DNA of 44,396 nt from an uncultured Verrucomicrobia subdivision 3 bacterium (lineage in GTDB: Bacteria; Verrucomicrobiota; Verrucomicrobiia; Limisphaerales; UBA11358). The stretch spans positions 1 through 44,396 of the forward strand of contig CAISEZ010000035.1 of NCBI GenBank assembly GCA_903884535.1, in the 5' to 3' direction. Position numbers and translations under genes: made by a program. The notes below the pieces were generated by a model. That model was not told where the DNA came from and made no database searches. It worked only from the letters and a program-made list of their open reading frames with translations. Below are positions 33,938 to 41,436 of this stretch, piece by piece (positions within the stretch are counted from its first letter, which is position 1; each line of letters opens with the position of its first letter).

Positions 33938-35224
33938 TTAAGTCCGGACCTGCCCAGTGCCAAAGCCGAGCCATTTGTAACTGGTCAATTCGTCCAAGCC
34001 CATCGGACCGCGCGCGCCGATTTTGTCGGTGCTGATGCCGATCTCTGCGCCCATGCCGAATTCGCCGCCGTCGGTGAAGCGCGTGCTGGCGTTCCAATAC
34101 ACCGCCGCCGAATCCACCTCGGCAAGGAACTGCTTCGCGTGCGCCTCGTTATTCGTGACGATGCTGTCCGAATGCGCTGAGCCGTAAAAATTGATGTGGT
34201 CAACCGCGGCCCGGACGCCGTCCACCACGCGGATGTTCAGGATGTAGTCATTGTATTCCGTGAACCAATCCTGCTCGCTGACGGCGCGTAGTTTTGCGTT
34301 TTGAATTTTCAGTTTTGCATTCAAGACTGCGCGCGTCGCCTCATCGCCGCGGATCTCGACGTGCTTGGCAAAAAGTCTTTCGCCGATGCGCGGAAGAAAA
34401 TTCTCCGCCACGGTTATATCCACGAGCAAGGTCTCGGCCGCGTTGCACACGCCGGGGCGCTGGACTTTGGCGTTGAAAACAATTTCTTCCGCCATTTTCA
34501 AGTCGGCATCGGCGTCCACAAAAACGTGGCAGACGCCCTTGTAATGTTTGATGACGGGCACCTTCGAGCAGTCCGCCACGGCGCGGATGAGGCTCTCGCC
34601 GCCGCGCGGCATGCAGAGGTCCACATATTGCGTGAGCGACAGCAGAATCGGAATCGCCTCGCGAGCGGGCGTGGGCACGACCTGGATCGCGTGTTCGGGA
34701 AAGCCTTGGCAGGCGGCTTTGCCGGCATCAATCATGGTCTTGGCGATGATCTGGTTGGAGTTCAGCGCCTCCTTGCCGCCGCGCAGAATCGTGGCATTGC
34801 CGGATTTGAAACACAGGCTCGCCGCGTCTGCCGTGACGTTCGGGCGCGATTCGTAAATGATCACCACGACGCCGATGGGCGTGGAAATTTTTTGCAGCTT
34901 CAGCCCGTTCGGCCGGATGCGCTCGTCCAGAATTCTGCCAACCGGGTCTGGCAGCGCCGCGACTTCGCGCAATCCCTTCGCCATGCTGGAAATTCTTTTG
35001 TCATCCAGCTTGAGTCGGTCCAGCATCGCGGCCGATAAATTCAATTTCGCGCCCACTTCCATGTCCAGCGCGTTGGCGGCTTTGATGGCGGCGGCGTTTT
35101 GTTCCAGCGCCGTGGCCATCGCCAGCAGGCAGGCATTTTTCTCCGCCGTAGTTAGCTTCGCCAGTTCGCGCGAAGCGGCTTTGGCCTGTTTGGCCAATTG
35201 CTTCATCTGTTCCGTCAGATTCAT
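33938..35224 (-). CDS. proA: Gamma-glutamyl phosphate reductase
   Basis: Reduces gamma-glutamyl phosphate to glutamate semialdehyde with NADPH in proline synthesis; cytoplasmic. A 428-residue protein of the aldehyde dehydrogenase superfamily. Motifs: GLKLQKISTPIGVVVIIYESRPNVTADAASLCFKSGNATILRGGKEA, CMPRGGESLIRAV, PVIKHYKGVCHVFVDADADL, catalytic Cys in QRPGVCNAAETLLV, and GEFGMGAEIGISTDKIGARGPMGLDELTSYKW at the C-terminus. Odd feature: where the family usually has a short PxxxPAT(E)EDW segment, this protein has LNAKLKIQNAKLRAVSEQDW, encoded by a four-unit heptamer tract. proB is not adjacent in the window. Confidence 0.95.
   Translation of the reverse strand: MNLTEQMKQLAKQAKAASRELAKLTTAEKNACLLAMATALEQNAAAIKAANALDMEVGAKLNLSAAMLDRLKLDDKRISSMAKGLREVAALPDPVGRILDERIRPNGLKLQKISTPIGVVVIIYESRPNVTADAASLCFKSGNATILRGGKEALNSNQIIAKTMIDAGKAACQGFPEHAIQVVPTPAREAIPILLSLTQYVDLCMPRGGESLIRAVADCSKVPVIKHYKGVCHVFVDADADLKMAEEIVFNAKVQRPGVCNAAETLLVDITVAENFLPRIGERLFAKHVEIRGDEATRAVLNAKLKIQNAKLRAVSEQDWFTEYNDYILNIRVVDGVRAAVDHINFYGSAHSDSIVTNNEAHAKQFLAEVDSAAVYWNASTRFTDGGEFGMGAEIGISTDKIGARGPMGLDELTSYKWLGFGTGQVRT
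34290..34317 (-). repeat. Heptamer tract of four 7-bp units inside proA
   Basis: On the proA coding strand: CAAAACT-GAAAATT-CAAAACG-CAAAACT, 28 bp, encoding AKLKIQNAKL at residues about 303-312. A different heptamer from the recG family, but with the same length and unit number. A looser version stands just before the ATG at 31666. Confidence 0.7.
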
Positions 35225-36965: not shown

Positions 36966-38993
36966 TTACCAGACGCGCACCAGCACGACGCCGTGGCGCG
37001 GCACGCTGGCGCTGAACGCATCCTGGAATTTCCCAAGATCTTTTTGCCGCCACAAATCGCGCACCGGATGTTTGCCGGTGAGGCCGAGGTCATACCAGTT
37101 CACGGTCACGCTGGTTTCGGTTTCGCCGCGGTTGAACAAGCCGATGGATTTTGAGCCGTCGGCCATGTTCTTGGCCCAAACTTCCAGTTTGCCGTTTTGA
37201 GAAATCCGCGCGGCCTGTTTGCCGAGCGCGTCCTGATCCACGGCCAGCACTTCGTCGTTGCTCAACAAACTCAGGGTGAAATCGTCCAGTTGCGACATAT
37301 CGCAGCCGATGAGCAGCGGCGAGGCCAGCAGGCACCACAAGCTGATGTGCGTGTATTGTTCGTTCGGCGTGAGGCGCGTCGGCCGCAGTTTGCCCCAGCC
37401 CAATTTGCCGACGACCAGCATGTCGGGATCATTCCAGTGCCCCGGCCCGGCGAAATCTTCGTGGCCCGCGGATTTGAAACCGTTGCCGGTCATGCTGCCC
37501 CAGGTGTCGGTGATGTCGCCGGTCGTGCGCCAGCAATTGCCGCCGACCTGCGTGCCCCATTTCCACACGTCGCCCATGCCGTATTGGCAAAGACTGAAAA
37601 CGATGTCGCGGTTCGCCCGCTCCAGCGCCGCGTGCATCACCGAGTAGGGATAAATTAACTCGGCGACATTTTTGGTCCTGACCCTCGACCAGCTTTTAAT
37701 GCCGGCCGAATTGGTGAGGGCATCGCGCTGCGCTTCCAGCTCCGGGCTGTAGGAACACCAGTCGTATTTCAGATAATCAAAACCCCACGCCGCGTATTGC
37801 TGCGCGTCCTGTTGCTCGTGGCCGAAACTGCCGACACAGCCGCCGCAGGTCCACGGGCCGGGCGAGGAATAAAGTCCGATGCGCAAACCTTTACCGTGAA
37901 CATAATCCGCCAGACCTTTCATGTCCGGAAAACGCGGATTCGGCAGGATGCGGCCGTCGGCGGCGCGCGCCGGCCCTTGCAGCGTCGGGTCTTTGGAATC
38001 GCGGTGTGTCTGCCAGTAGTCGTCAATGTTGATGTAGGTCCAGCCGTGGTTTTGCAGGCCGCTTTGGATGAAGGCATCGGCGGCGGCCTTGACTTTTTCC
38101 GCCGACACCGCGCCGGCAAAACAGTTCCAGCTGTTCCAACCCATTGGCGGGGTGAGCGCGATTTGGTCGCCGCAGATAATTTTCAACGCACGCTTGGTTT
38201 TGCCGATTTTATTTTTGGCGCGCAGCGTCACCACATATTCGCCGCGCTTCGCCACCGTGCCGGTGATGAACCCGGTTTGCGGGTCGAGCTTCAGCCCTTT
38301 CGGCAAATGGTCGGCGGAAAATGTCATCGGCCGGTCGCCGGTCGCCGCAATCGTGAACAGAAAATCGTGGCCGGGCCGCACGCCGAAAATGGGCGCGCCA
38401 TTGATGCGCGGCGTGGCCGGAGCCGGCGGTGTCAAAATCACCGCGTCATTCACCCCTGCTTCAGACGCCGAAGAAATCGTTTCCGGCCGCGCTCCGGAAA
38501 TTTCAAATTTTGCGTCCGCCCAGTCGGCGTGGTCGTATTCTATGCCGTCGCCGGCGTCGCCGACTTGCAGCACCAGCAATTTGACGCCGGTGAGCTTGAC
38601 GTCGAGCGCCTTGGCCGGATCGCCGGGCCGCATCACGCCGCTCTGCCAAAGGGTTTCCCCATCGCCAATCACGGAAAATTCCACGGTGCCCGGATGAGTT
38701 TTCGCTTCATCGTCCACGCCGACCGACGCCGAGAATTTTTCCGCGCTGCCGTTGAGATTCAGCCGCAGTTCGCTTTCGGCATGCGTGCCGAGGCCGTGTT
38801 GGAACGTCACGCCGCCGATGCTCAACGCGTGGCCCTCGACGGACTGGTTTTTATGCGGCTCGCCCCAACCCTGCGTGGTCTTGCTCATGTCCAATTCGTC
38901 TAGCCAGACCGGCGCAGCGGATAGTTTTAAGCCCAGCAGCAGCGCCAGCGCACCGATTTGAAAACGCCCGAAGTGGAATGTCCGTTGTTTCAT
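36966..38993 (-). CDS. GH27 alpha-galactosidase with NPCBM and Ig-like domains
   Basis: A 675-residue exported enzyme (signal MKQRTFHFGRFQIGALALLLGLKLSAAP). Residues 28-170 form an NPCBM carbohydrate-binding domain (VWLDELDMSKTTQGWGEPHKNQSVEGHALSIGGVTFQHGLGTHAESELRLNL). Residues 195-275 are a putative Ig domain. The GH27 barrel starts at TPPMGWNSWNCFAG, with YINIDDYWQ, FDYLKYDWCSY (nucleophile Asp411), CWRTTGDITDTW (acid/base Asp493) and GHWNDPDMLVVG. A beta-sandwich with VDQDALGKQAARI and GLFNRGETETSVTV ends it. It should remove terminal alpha-galactose from plant or algal glycans, outside the cytoplasm. The frame extends 15 codons upstream; ATG at 38993 starts the signal. No polysaccharide utilisation genes surround it. 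Lies 18 bp upstream of the CusF-SCO1 gene. Confidence 0.94.
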   Translation of the reverse strand: MKQRTFHFGRFQIGALALLLGLKLSAAPVWLDELDMSKTTQGWGEPHKNQSVEGHALSIGGVTFQHGLGTHAESELRLNLNGSAEKFSASVGVDDEAKTHPGTVEFSVIGDGETLWQSGVMRPGDPAKALDVKLTGVKLLVLQVGDAGDGIEYDHADWADAKFEISGARPETISSASEAGVNDAVILTPPAPATPRINGAPIFGVRPGHDFLFTIAATGDRPMTFSADHLPKGLKLDPQTGFITGTVAKRGEYVVTLRAKNKIGKTKRALKIICGDQIALTPPMGWNSWNCFAGAVSAEKVKAAADAFIQSGLQNHGWTYINIDDYWQTHRDSKDPTLQGPARAADGRILPNPRFPDMKGLADYVHGKGLRIGLYSSPGPWTCGGCVGSFGHEQQDAQQYAAWGFDYLKYDWCSYSPELEAQRDALTNSAGIKSWSRVRTKNVAELIYPYSVMHAALERANRDIVFSLCQYGMGDVWKWGTQVGGNCWRTTGDITDTWGSMTGNGFKSAGHEDFAGPGHWNDPDMLVVGKLGWGKLRPTRLTPNEQYTHISLWCLLASPLLIGCDMSQLDDFTLSLLSNDEVLAVDQDALGKQAARISQNGKLEVWAKNMADGSKSIGLFNRGETETSVTVNWYDLGLTGKHPVRDLWRQKDLGKFQDAFSASVPRHGVVLVRVW

Positions 38994-39096: not shown

Positions 39097-40077
39097 ATGA
39101 GCAAACCGTTGAAAGAACAGGTCGCGGAAACTTCGGCTTGGATCCGGACGCTGCGCACCGAAGTCGGCCGCGTGATTGTCGGCCAGGAACAACTCGTCGA
39201 GCGCCTGCTCGTCGGTCTGCTCGCCAATGGCCACGTCCTGCTCGAAGGTGTGCCCGGCCTGGCCAAAACGCTTTCCGTCCGCACGCTCGCGGCGGCGGTG
39301 CAGGCGAGTTTCCGGCGCATCCAGTTCACGCCCGACCTGCTGCCCGCAGATATTGTCGGCAATTTAATTTATTCGCCGCAGGACGGCAAATATCACGTCA
39401 CGCAGGGACCGGTGTTTGCGAATTTTGTGCTCGCCGATGAAATTAACCGCGCGCCGGCCAAAGTTCAAAGTGCGTTGCTCGAAGCCATGCAGGAACGCCA
39501 AGTCACGCTCGGCGGCGAAACGCGCAAGCTGCCGTCGCCGTTTCTCGTGCTGGCCACGGAAAATCCGATTGACCAGGAAGGCACGTATCCCTTGCCCGAG
39601 GCGCAGGTGGACCGCTTCATGTTCAAAGTGATTTTGGATTATCCGTCGTTTGCGGAAGAGCGGCACATTTTGGATCGCATGGCGTTCACCGCGCCGGAGA
39701 CCGTCATCAAACCCGTGGTCGGCCTCGACGAAATTCTGGCCACGCAAAAAATCGTGGACCAAATCCACGTGGACGAAAAAATCCGCGACTACATTGTCAA
39801 ACTGGTTTTCGCCACACGCAAGCCGGACGAACACAAACTTGAACTGAAACATTTCATCCAGTTCGGTGCGTCACCGCGCGCGACGATTTATCTGACCATC
39901 GCCGCCAAAGCCTGGGCGCTGTTGCAGGGCCGCGATTATGTGATCCCGGAAGATGTGAAAAGCATCGGGCCGGATGTGCTGCGGCATCGCATCATTTTGA
40001 CTTACGAAGCCGAGGCGCAATCCGTGACCAGCGACGCCATCGTCAAAAAAATTCTAAACGCTGTGCCAGTGCCGTAA
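39097..40077 (+). CDS. MoxR-family AAA+ ATPase
   Basis: A 326-residue cytoplasmic chaperone-type ATPase. Motifs: EVGRVIVGQEQLVERLLVGLLANGHVLLEGVPGLAKT (Walker A), FTPDLLPADIVGNLIY, FVLADEINRAPAKVQSALLEAMQERQVT (Walker B and the MoxR signature), LVLATENPIDQEGTYPLPEAQVDRF (sensor 1 region) and FGASPRATIYLTIAAKAWALLQGRDYVIPEDV (sensor 2 and lid). MoxR proteins usually act with a DUF58 protein and von Willebrand-type proteins encoded just downstream. Here no such partner follows; the next gene is an unrelated ATP-grasp-like protein. The start lies about 100 bp from the divergent galactosidase gene. Confidence 0.93.
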   Translation: MSKPLKEQVAETSAWIRTLRTEVGRVIVGQEQLVERLLVGLLANGHVLLEGVPGLAKTLSVRTLAAAVQASFRRIQFTPDLLPADIVGNLIYSPQDGKYHVTQGPVFANFVLADEINRAPAKVQSALLEAMQERQVTLGGETRKLPSPFLVLATENPIDQEGTYPLPEAQVDRFMFKVILDYPSFAEERHILDRMAFTAPETVIKPVVGLDEILATQKIVDQIHVDEKIRDYIVKLVFATRKPDEHKLELKHFIQFGASPRATIYLTIAAKAWALLQGRDYVIPEDVKSIGPDVLRHRIILTYEAEAQSVTSDAIVKKILNAVPVP

Positions 40078-40101: not shown

Positions 40102-41436
40102 GTGAACACGCCTGCCGACCAAGCCAGATTCATCCGCGCTGCCATTCCCGCTGGCGGGCTGTTTGCCGGACTGGACTGGAAGATTTCGCCGGCGCCGTTT
40201 CCGCTGGGCGAAAATCTGGCGCAGGAAATCGAATCGCTGGGGCGCGTGCTGCTGCAGTTTTATCGCGCGACCAATCTGCTTTACCGCAAGAGCGTCGAGG
40301 GCAAGCAGCCGGAATGGGTCGCGCGCTGGCTGGACTTGGGCAAGCCGCGAGAATTGATCGAGCTGCAGCGTGCCGCCGCTTTCAAAAACGACGTCCCGCG
40401 CGTCATCCGGCCGGACATTTTGCTGATGGAAAATGGTTTCAGCGTCACGGAACTGGATTCGGTTCCCGGCGGCATCGGGCTGACGGGGTGGTTGAACAAA
40501 ACGTATTCTGCCCTCAACTCTCCACCCTCAACTCTCCACCCGCTTGGCGGCGCGGACGGAATGCTGCGCGGCTTTGAAAGTATTTTTGGCGATGCGAAGC
40601 AGGTTCACCTCGTCGTCTCTGAAGAAGCTGCGACTTACAAACCGGAAATGGCGTGGCTGGCCGAACAGCTAAATCAGCGCGGCGGCGCAACTTTCAACCT
40701 TCAACCTTCAACCTTCAACCAGTTTTCCGAAGGCGCCGCCGTTTATCGTTTCTTCGAGCTGTTCGATTTGCCCAATGTTGCCAATGCGAAACAGATTTTC
40801 GAACTCGCGGCGGAAAAGAAAATCCGCCTGACGCCGCCGCCGAAGCCGCTGTTTGAGGAAAAGATGCTGTTCGCGCTGCTGTGGAACCGGAACCTGCACA
40901 GCTTCTGGCGGCAGGAACTGGGCGAAGGTTTTCTGGCGCGGCTGAAGAAAATCATTCCCTACACCTGGCTCGTGGATCCGACGCCGCTGCCGCCGCACGC
41001 GGCCATTCCGGAACTCAATCTCACGGACTGGGCGCAGCTCAAGGCGATGTCGCAGCGCGAACGAGATTTGATTTTGAAGGTGTCCGGCTTTTCCGAAAAT
41101 GCCTGGGGCGCGCGCGGCGTTTATCTTGGCAGCGATTTATCCGGCGCGGACTGGAGCGCGGCGGTGGATGCGGCGCTGAAGAATTTTGAGACGTCGCCAA
41201 GCGTGTTGCAGCGTTTCCACAAGCCCTCGCAAGTGGACGCAAGCTGGTTTGATTTCGCGAAGAACGAATTGGTGCCGATGAAGGGCAGGGCGCGGCTGTG
41301 TCCGTATTATTTTGTGAGCGGCGAGGGTGACAATTTGCGGTCCGCGCTCGGCGGCGTGCTGGCGACGATTGTGCCCGCCGACAAGAAAATCGTCCACGGC
41401 ATGGCGGACGCGATTCTAGCACCGTGTTCGGTTTAA
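40102..41436 (+). CDS. Hypothetical protein, possibly ATP-grasp-like, with two repeat insertions
   Basis: A 444-residue cytoplasmic protein starting with GTG. I do not recognise a named family. Features that recall ATP-grasp enzymes are RPDILLMENGFSVTELDSVPGGIGLTGWLN, VVSEEAATYKPEMAWLAEQLNQRGG, PYTWLVDPTPLPPHAAIPEL and the SQRERDLILKVSGFSENAWGARGVYLGSDLS segment (Lys plus glycine-rich loop). The last part, RARLCPYYFVSGEGDNLRSALGGVLATIVPADKKIVHGM, looks conserved. Two in-frame low-complexity insertions interrupt it: SALNSPPSTLHP (about 136-147) and TFNLQPSTFNQ (about 196-207), each from a 28-bp four-heptamer tract. It follows the MoxR gene by 24 bp and is probably co-transcribed. ATP-grasp assignment is tentative. 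Confidence 0.75.
   Translation: MNTPADQARFIRAAIPAGGLFAGLDWKISPAPFPLGENLAQEIESLGRVLLQFYRATNLLYRKSVEGKQPEWVARWLDLGKPRELIELQRAAAFKNDVPRVIRPDILLMENGFSVTELDSVPGGIGLTGWLNKTYSALNSPPSTLHPLGGADGMLRGFESIFGDAKQVHLVVSEEAATYKPEMAWLAEQLNQRGGATFNLQPSTFNQFSEGAAVYRFFELFDLPNVANAKQIFELAAEKKIRLTPPPKPLFEEKMLFALLWNRNLHSFWRQELGEGFLARLKKIIPYTWLVDPTPLPPHAAIPELNLTDWAQLKAMSQRERDLILKVSGFSENAWGARGVYLGSDLSGADWSAAVDAALKNFETSPSVLQRFHKPSQVDASWFDFAKNELVPMKGRARLCPYYFVSGEGDNLRSALGGVLATIVPADKKIVHGMADAILAPCSV
40513..40540 (+). repeat. Heptamer tract CTCAACT/CTCCACC x2 in the 40.1-kb gene
   Basis: CTCAACT-CTCCACC-CTCAACT-CTCCACC, exactly four units, as a perfect tandem of a 14-bp dimer. It encodes LNSPPSTLH. It matches the YTCMACY consensus of the recG tract and of 40693-40720. 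Confidence 0.85.
40693..40720 (+). repeat. Perfect (TTCAACC)x4 tract in the 40.1-kb gene
   Basis: Four identical heptamers TTCAACC in tandem, encoding FNLQPSTFN in frame. This is the cleanest member of the family and probably the youngest. Confidence 0.93.

Follow-up and report, generated by a model that had tools for sequence, protein, structure and literature searches.

Heptanucleotide arrays with differing units at orthologous sites in conserved genes of a Verrucomicrobia genus

Results

The window gene and its two heptamer tracts

The window, here the whole stretch of 44,396 nucleotides analysed from an uncultured Verrucomicrobia subdivision 3 bacterium (contig CAISEZ010000035.1), contains one gene with two tandem heptamer tracts and, in another open reading frame, a degenerate array. 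The features are listed below.

34290-34317, minus strand: degenerate heptamer array inside the open reading frame 33938-35224 (TRF period 7, 4 copies, 71% match), encoding KLKIQNAKL
39097-40077: gene for a MoxR-type AAA ATPase, with the host gene of the tracts directly downstream
40102-41436, plus strand: host gene, called as an open reading frame of 444 aa
40513-40540, plus strand: tract 1, CTCAACT-CTCCACC-CTCAACT-CTCCACC, 28 bp, part of the coil after helix 125-136 of the protein
40693-40720, plus strand: tract 2, (TTCAACC)x4, a periodic run that with its flank spans 40688-40720, in strand 197-201 and the coil after it

The two 28-bp tracts described in the initial annotation of this DNA were confirmed in position and frame, tract 1 being translated as LNSPPSTLHP and tract 2 as FNLQPSTFNQ. 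They are far from chance, with 8 two-unit YTCMACY matches (at most one mismatch) in the window versus 0.45 expected and none of 100 shuffles reaching 8. In the whole source genome two-unit matches numbered 38 (reversed-pattern control 15) and three-unit matches 16 (control 3); the control is not neutral, its pattern being a heptamer word in its own right. A run of 2.6 copies of GCCGGTC at 38330-38347 may be due to chance.

A Pfam search of the host protein gave no match. The AlphaFold2 model (mean pLDDT 89.3) matched human glutathione synthetase best in Foldseek (8fbz_A, E 1.2e-13), and the predicted fold is that of a glutathione-synthetase-type ATP-grasp ligase, the synthetases matched being of the eukaryotic type. 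A conserved protein of this predicted fold is thus encoded next to the MoxR-type ATPase gene. Both tracts were identical in a contig of the same species (L017, 99.56% identity over 4,519 bp). The bin of that contig, KR_bin-4047, may mix two species, since two different window-gene orthologues (L017 and L024) come from it. Three further orthologues at 62-83% identity (L019, L046 and L059) are titled Methylacidimicrobium fagopyrum or Akkermansia muciniphila, labels that look doubtful.

Period seven and the heptamer vocabulary

A 430,642-bp sample of the source genome, composed of the window and 20 stretches from contigs with YTCMACY hits, contained 26 arrays of score at least 14 at period 7, 5 at period 14 and 1 at period 19; none was found at the remaining periods from 4 to 24, and one order-2 Markov simulation likewise gave none. 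A second sample of 194,746 bp, for which contigs were picked by number and those already taken for hits left out, contained 5 arrays at period 7 versus 0-1 at the other periods from 4 to 20. When six genomes of the genus were pooled (1,808,597 bp, several stretches being chosen around TTCAACC hits), arrays of score at least 14 numbered 78 at period 7 and 13 at period 14, with at most 5 at each other period from 4 to 20.

At a score of at least 12 the six-genome sample contained 95 period-7 arrays in 46 unit classes, whereas 300 random draws of 95 heptamers gave at least 80 classes with a mean of 87.8. The largest class held 16 arrays versus no more than 4 in the draws. The TTCAACC class is inflated, many stretches having been chosen by TTCAACC hits; with this class removed there were 45 classes among 79 arrays versus at least 66 (mean 73.9) in random draws. 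The vocabulary of heptamers is small but not single. The wider repeat family proposed in the initial annotation is accordingly borne out as a genome-wide heptamer phenomenon, but not as one spreading word, YTCMACY being one of many units (46 classes). In the source genome GCGGAAA was found at 10 loci, 9 of which contained exactly two overlapping 21-mers. Both the restricted vocabulary with its large leading class and the GCGGAAA loci speak for a spreading family, in which copies of arrays would move and insert into loops and the small vocabulary would reflect a few active words; the orthologue comparisons described below make this reading unlikely. A compound array was observed at L329:16171-16220, where three copies of GATTCTG are followed in phase by four of CTTTCCG.

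The YTCMACY word is largely confined to the lineage. Arrays of TTCAACC were found in 20 of 40 genomes of the genus and in 3 of 145 genomes of the phylum, and GCGGAAA arrays in 3 of 77 genomes of the order, the source genome being counted each time. The reversed control pattern matched 3 times in the genus run and, across the phylum, 19 times in three genomes (14 in G182, 3 in G105 and 2 in G077); since it is a heptamer word, other words occur further out, and these three lineages may have words of their own. No period-7 array of score at least 12 was found in 60 kb of the same-class genome G127, in 11 kb of G153 or in 50 kb of E. coli MG1655, and two were found in 18 kb of a G185 contig chosen for a hit.

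Location, orientation and length of arrays in genes

The 95 arrays were assigned with a simple gene caller written for the analysis, a crude tool that gave a coding fraction of 0.851 in the sampled DNA and 0.719 in a small sample of E. coli. By number most arrays (71 of 95) fall within predicted genes, 56 of them well inside and 15 within 75 bp of the predicted start. The remaining 24 lie outside, which at the above coding fraction corresponds to a per-base density about 1.9-fold higher outside predicted genes, the density within genes being about nine tenths of the genome average. Host genes identified by NCBIfam above curated cut-offs encode MnmE, HemW, MurF, TsaE and DnaG. AroA scored 271.0 bits, under the cut-off of 287.25, and matched solved EPSP synthases at E 2.1e-54; also below cut-off were an RluA-family protein, a broken Mfd and an rRNA methyltransferase. 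In the source genome four neighbouring genes at L107:13267-19147, three of them similar at the N-terminus in a long shared motif, carry arrays near their starts with units TTCTGCC, CGCTTTC, GGCAACC and TTCTGCC.

The expectation that the repeat is tolerated in genes in its stop-free orientation was upheld for the YTCMACY family, with 15 sense arrays and 1 antisense in the sampled stretches. For all words together the predicted sense strand was free of stops in 53 of the 56 arrays well inside genes; the other 3, which hold a stop word there, are perhaps errors of the caller. Since a heptamer presents all reading frames over three units and a stop in any of them ends the gene, the sense orientation reflects survivorship. 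Peptides like FNLQPSTF recur among the arrays, as selection for a repeated heptapeptide would produce. The period is 7 nt and not 21 nt, however, and since a lag of 7 nt runs across codon frames, protein selection would not be expected to generate it; moreover, different words at one site encode unrelated peptides. Selection of this kind is therefore an exceedingly improbable cause.

Arrays of 26-35 bp accounted for 44 of the 56 in genes versus 11 of the 24 outside (Fisher p 0.0075). Exact TTCAACC arrays, found at 78 loci in 20 genomes, had one 20-mer match at 31 loci, two at 44 and more at 3; two of the three longest loci (G018, 45 and 61 bp) are outside predicted genes. The preference for about four units noted at the outset was therefore recovered. 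Starting from one unit, four is the lowest copy number at which the added length is divisible by three. A frame filter therefore fits, and the four units in genes are best explained by the reading frame.

The frames of MnmE, MurF, TsaE, DnaG and AroA remain open through the arrays. Those of HemW (L106:9429-10208) and Mfd (L121:9002-10702) in the draft source genome stop just past the array, the remainder of Mfd continuing in another frame by comparison with orthologues and that of HemW presumably doing likewise; either break could be true slippage or a draft-assembly error. Such breaks are what would be seen if the arrays were contingency loci, at which gain or loss of one unit switches a gene on and off. 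This role is very doubtful given the five frames that stay open, the possible assembly errors and the stability of units between the orthologues L028 and L040, which are 90% identical.

Turnover of units at orthologous sites

The initial annotation had called for alignment with orthologues lacking the tracts. Among the 61 related loci returned by a search, relatives have different heptamer words at this position, an outcome it had not foreseen. The window gene was aligned with 57 rows besides L017, some of them partial. The units at site 1, the position of tract 1, include GCGGAAA, AGAATCC, CAACTCC, GGAAATC and AGAAGTC among others, and those at site 2 are TTCAACC, TTCAAAA, TTCAGAA, GTTCAAG, GTGCGAA or a degenerate TTCNNNN. 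A quick tree covered 54 of the 60 orthologues and was built with the two sites left out. Site 1 had 15 arrays with 9 units, for which the array-bearing rows require no fewer than 9 changes of unit, and site 2 had 26 arrays with 9 units and no fewer than 14 such changes. The presence of an array changed at least 12 times at each site. With one same-species contig (L017) compared, no gain at the level of strains was seen.

Four other genes were compared over 30 loci each, as returned by a search of 40 genomes of the genus. In MnmE the loop after NKxDLP contained an array in 9 of 30 orthologues, with 8 different units. Arrays were present in 5 of 30 DnaG orthologues at one site and in 3 or 4 at another, and in 5 of 30 AroA orthologues. 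The 30 Mfd orthologues contained 35 arrays in eight site clusters, one site having 10 arrays and many degenerate relatives at a common position in a region of 24-27 bp in 26 of 30 rows. These genomes are drafts of 30 to 760 contigs, which might raise the suspicion of assembly artefact or contamination. The arrays recur, however, in many independent assemblies, in frame and at matching sites, are present on a contig of 569 kb (G001) and are shorter than usual short reads, so that this explanation has almost no likelihood.

Inserts of another kind, judged palindrome-like by eye, were seen in frame in the AroA loop of L170, L172-L176, L179, L187 and L193, and in window-gene orthologues L037 and L054 in the same loops as heptamer arrays. 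The peptides encoded by palindrome-like inserts include HRDTESTEK..SSVPQWQKK, GRAGSPLPADAS..RRARSDAP and GRDAFHRVP..GDAVERVPT.

Replacement and insertion

The tracts had been described as inserted. This holds in part, site 1 being a loop of varying length and site 2 a stretch that is nearly constant in length in most orthologues. In a scan of 36 arrays against the best array-free orthologue, with the window-gene set and 20 arrays lacking a usable partner left out and with decayed arrays such as L169 included among the partners, the best deletion was 0 in 24 and 21 in 1. The length of an array is thus often that of the array-free orthologue, and the arrays rewrite sequence as much as they insert. 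A clean gain of 21 bp as the sole mode was rejected as a general account, with the caveat that the comparisons are divergent. Alignment of 13 in-gene orthologue pairs (at most 86% identical where listed) indicated mostly replacement, with some longer extra blocks (DnaG L207 and L211), and visual inspection revealed no boundary sequence shared by the pairs. The spreading family considered above would gain from the other inserts, palindrome-like by eye, in the AroA loop of other species. It is opposed by the unchanged length at 24 of 36 arrays, by the many different words at one site across species and by the want of a common boundary in the 13 pairs.

Rows with no scored array were examined for residual periodicity. 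The lag-7 match was 0.45-0.55 at four Mfd sites and at window site 2, the gene-wide value being 0.26. Seven further sites, with MnmE, DnaG, AroA, two Mfd sites and both column clusters of window site 1 among them, gave 0.30-0.34, an excess so weak, with other lags equally high in AroA, that old arrays are not established there. Identity within arrays was 0.82 at an Mfd site (8 rows) and 0.86 at window site 2 (15 rows). Between species it was 0.51 and 0.70 in register versus 0.21-0.31 and 0.13-0.41 out of register, respectively; in DnaG (4 rows) the phases were not clearly separated. Part of the similarity in register may be due to constraint on the protein. The pattern of identities is that which concerted evolution would leave, the alternative being recurrent replacement under protein constraint. 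Spread of variant units in blocks was also considered; a first count was positive by a detection that favoured blocks, and a bias-free recount was negative (AABB 10, ABAB 6, ABBA 10).

Arrays at S23/IVP loci

An S23/IVP-like open reading frame was found in the source genome (L120:13480-13912, contig C138) between the arms of a perfect 33-bp inverted repeat containing CTCTCAA. The corresponding family, PF05635, was present in 20 of 21 genomes of the genus versus 0 of 14 control genomes. The source genome had 7 matches, 6 of them over the cut-off and none on the contig of the window, so that the association is genome-wide and does not concern the window locus. Thirty PF05635 loci from the genus list were compared with 33 controls drawn from 90 AroA, DnaG and MnmE loci. 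An array of score at least 8 was within 120 bp of the match end at 23 of the 30 versus 2 of the 33 controls, a 35-fold difference in density, and an inverted stem of score at least 12 was present at 23 of 30, the controls reaching 7-12. At a position shared by two species (L358 and L315) the words differ and the arms are complementary in each.

These results, together with the intervening sequence in the 23S rRNA of the Q-fever agent, for which PMC4990558 describes an S23 open reading frame, an inverted terminal stem and tandem heptamers upstream of the frame, would suit a process in which S23/IVP four-helix-bundle elements have heptamer arrays as arms and the machinery behind these arms also writes or homogenises heptamers at other loci. 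Seven of the 30 loci have no clear stem, however, and two relatives without the element at the shared position (L147 and L157) showed neither arms nor an array footprint. Nor did the number of IVP elements correlate significantly with array density in 18 genomes (rho 0.32, p 0.20), on which ground IVP dose was set aside as the cause of that density. Perhaps the elements require no more than a stem and are subject to the same slippage as other loci. A heptamer-writing process tied to S23/IVP elements is thus improbable, although the tie provides a first candidate partner for such a process.

Discussion

Origin of the arrays

The two tracts of the window gene are considered to be two cases of short period-7 arrays that arise from a process at the level of DNA acting genus-wide, most likely slippage or template dislocation by 7 nt, a reading to which a probability of roughly 0.6 is assigned. 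The polymerase would slip, or the template be dislocated, in steps of 7 nt and so write arrays, which would then be rewritten to new units and decay. In genes the survivors would mainly be arrays located in tolerant loops that leave the frame intact and have a sense strand free of stops, a filter that would leave in-gene arrays about four units long. Repeated rewriting of the same loops would explain why orthologues carry arrays at the same place and often of the same length with different words, whether turnover at a site proceeds by concerted evolution of an old array or by recurrent replacement. The presence of the arrays, their period, their placement in conserved genes, the change of units at fixed sites and the limited vocabulary are observed; the 7-nt cause and the filter behind four units are inferred. 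Plain slippage acting on the sequence locally present would not predict the restricted vocabulary (46 classes versus at least 80), which counts against this explanation. Also against it are the rarity of a clean 21-bp gain, the longer extra blocks in some pairs, the negative recount of variant units, the weak lag-7 excess at seven sites, the identical tracts of the same-species contig and the higher density outside predicted genes. A putative dedicated period-7 rewriting process, possibly linked to S23/IVP proteins, would impose a small lineage-specific vocabulary both on the inverted S23/IVP arms and on essential-gene loops, the word being exchanged with copy number and complementarity of the arms retained; such a process is rather unlikely.

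One would expect genes to be purged of repeats whose unit length cannot be divided by three. In this genus heptamers reside in primase, EPSP synthase and MnmE, with the same loop carrying different words according to species. The question of why bacteria favour sevens becomes testable with orthologous sites as replicates. Loops of this kind can also mislead alignments, peptide-based annotation and phylogenies.

Comparison with known systems

Judged by titles and abstracts, and with most subscription papers outside the scope, the open literature yielded neither a description of heptamer arrays in Verrucomicrobia nor one of units turning over within protein genes. Heptamer excess, the preference for four units and heptamers beside an S23 open reading frame are already in print for other systems; word turnover inside essential genes was not found in the literature so searched. 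The STRR of cyanobacteria are mainly between genes, unlike the present arrays, 71 of 95 of which are in predicted genes even though the density is 1.9-fold higher outside. Rickettsia palindromic elements are an example of foreign DNA that protein genes tolerate in frame; the arrays described here differ in that they are tandem, not palindromic, and have no fixed sequence.

The arrays belong to the broad class of heptanucleotide simple sequence repeats, being tandem 7-nt units above chance with period 7 preferred. As summarised in PMC4679880 and PMC4692102, Mrazek (2007) found 7-nt units to be the commonest of the longer repeats in most of the surveyed genomes and proposed polymerase-linked slippage; relative to the repeats so summarised, the present ones lie mostly in conserved genes and their words turn over at orthologous sites. 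The TAACTGA repeats of Beggiatoaceae, as far as described in PMC4679880, are likewise short direct heptamers with a genome-wide distribution and sporadic taxonomy, but consist of one word that is abundant between genes and in most cases just upstream of start codons, whereas many words are found here and mostly in predicted genes. The intervening sequence of PMC4990558 lies inside rRNA as described there, and the S23-associated copies reported here occupy other loci with differing words.

The GGGNATC heptamers of Xanthomonas and Nostoc, in the account given by PMC4692102, have a clear preference for four units, which is shared by the arrays described here, and vary in length and sequence between close relatives; they are over-represented in non-coding DNA and tied to G-quadruplexes. 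Unlike them, the commonest classes here (TTCAACC/AACCTTC and GCGGAAA/AAAGCGG) contain no GGG on either strand, so that the quadruplex explanation of four units does not carry over, and G-quadruplex formation is weakened as a general reason for that number. In the P6b region of the Nostoc trnL intron, an RNA stem that PMC4476775 describes as having two heptamer classes, one repeatedly replacing the other, heptamers are again found at a fixed site with replacement of class; P6b is not protein-coding, whereas the loops of the genus examined here undergo this exchange of words within protein genes.
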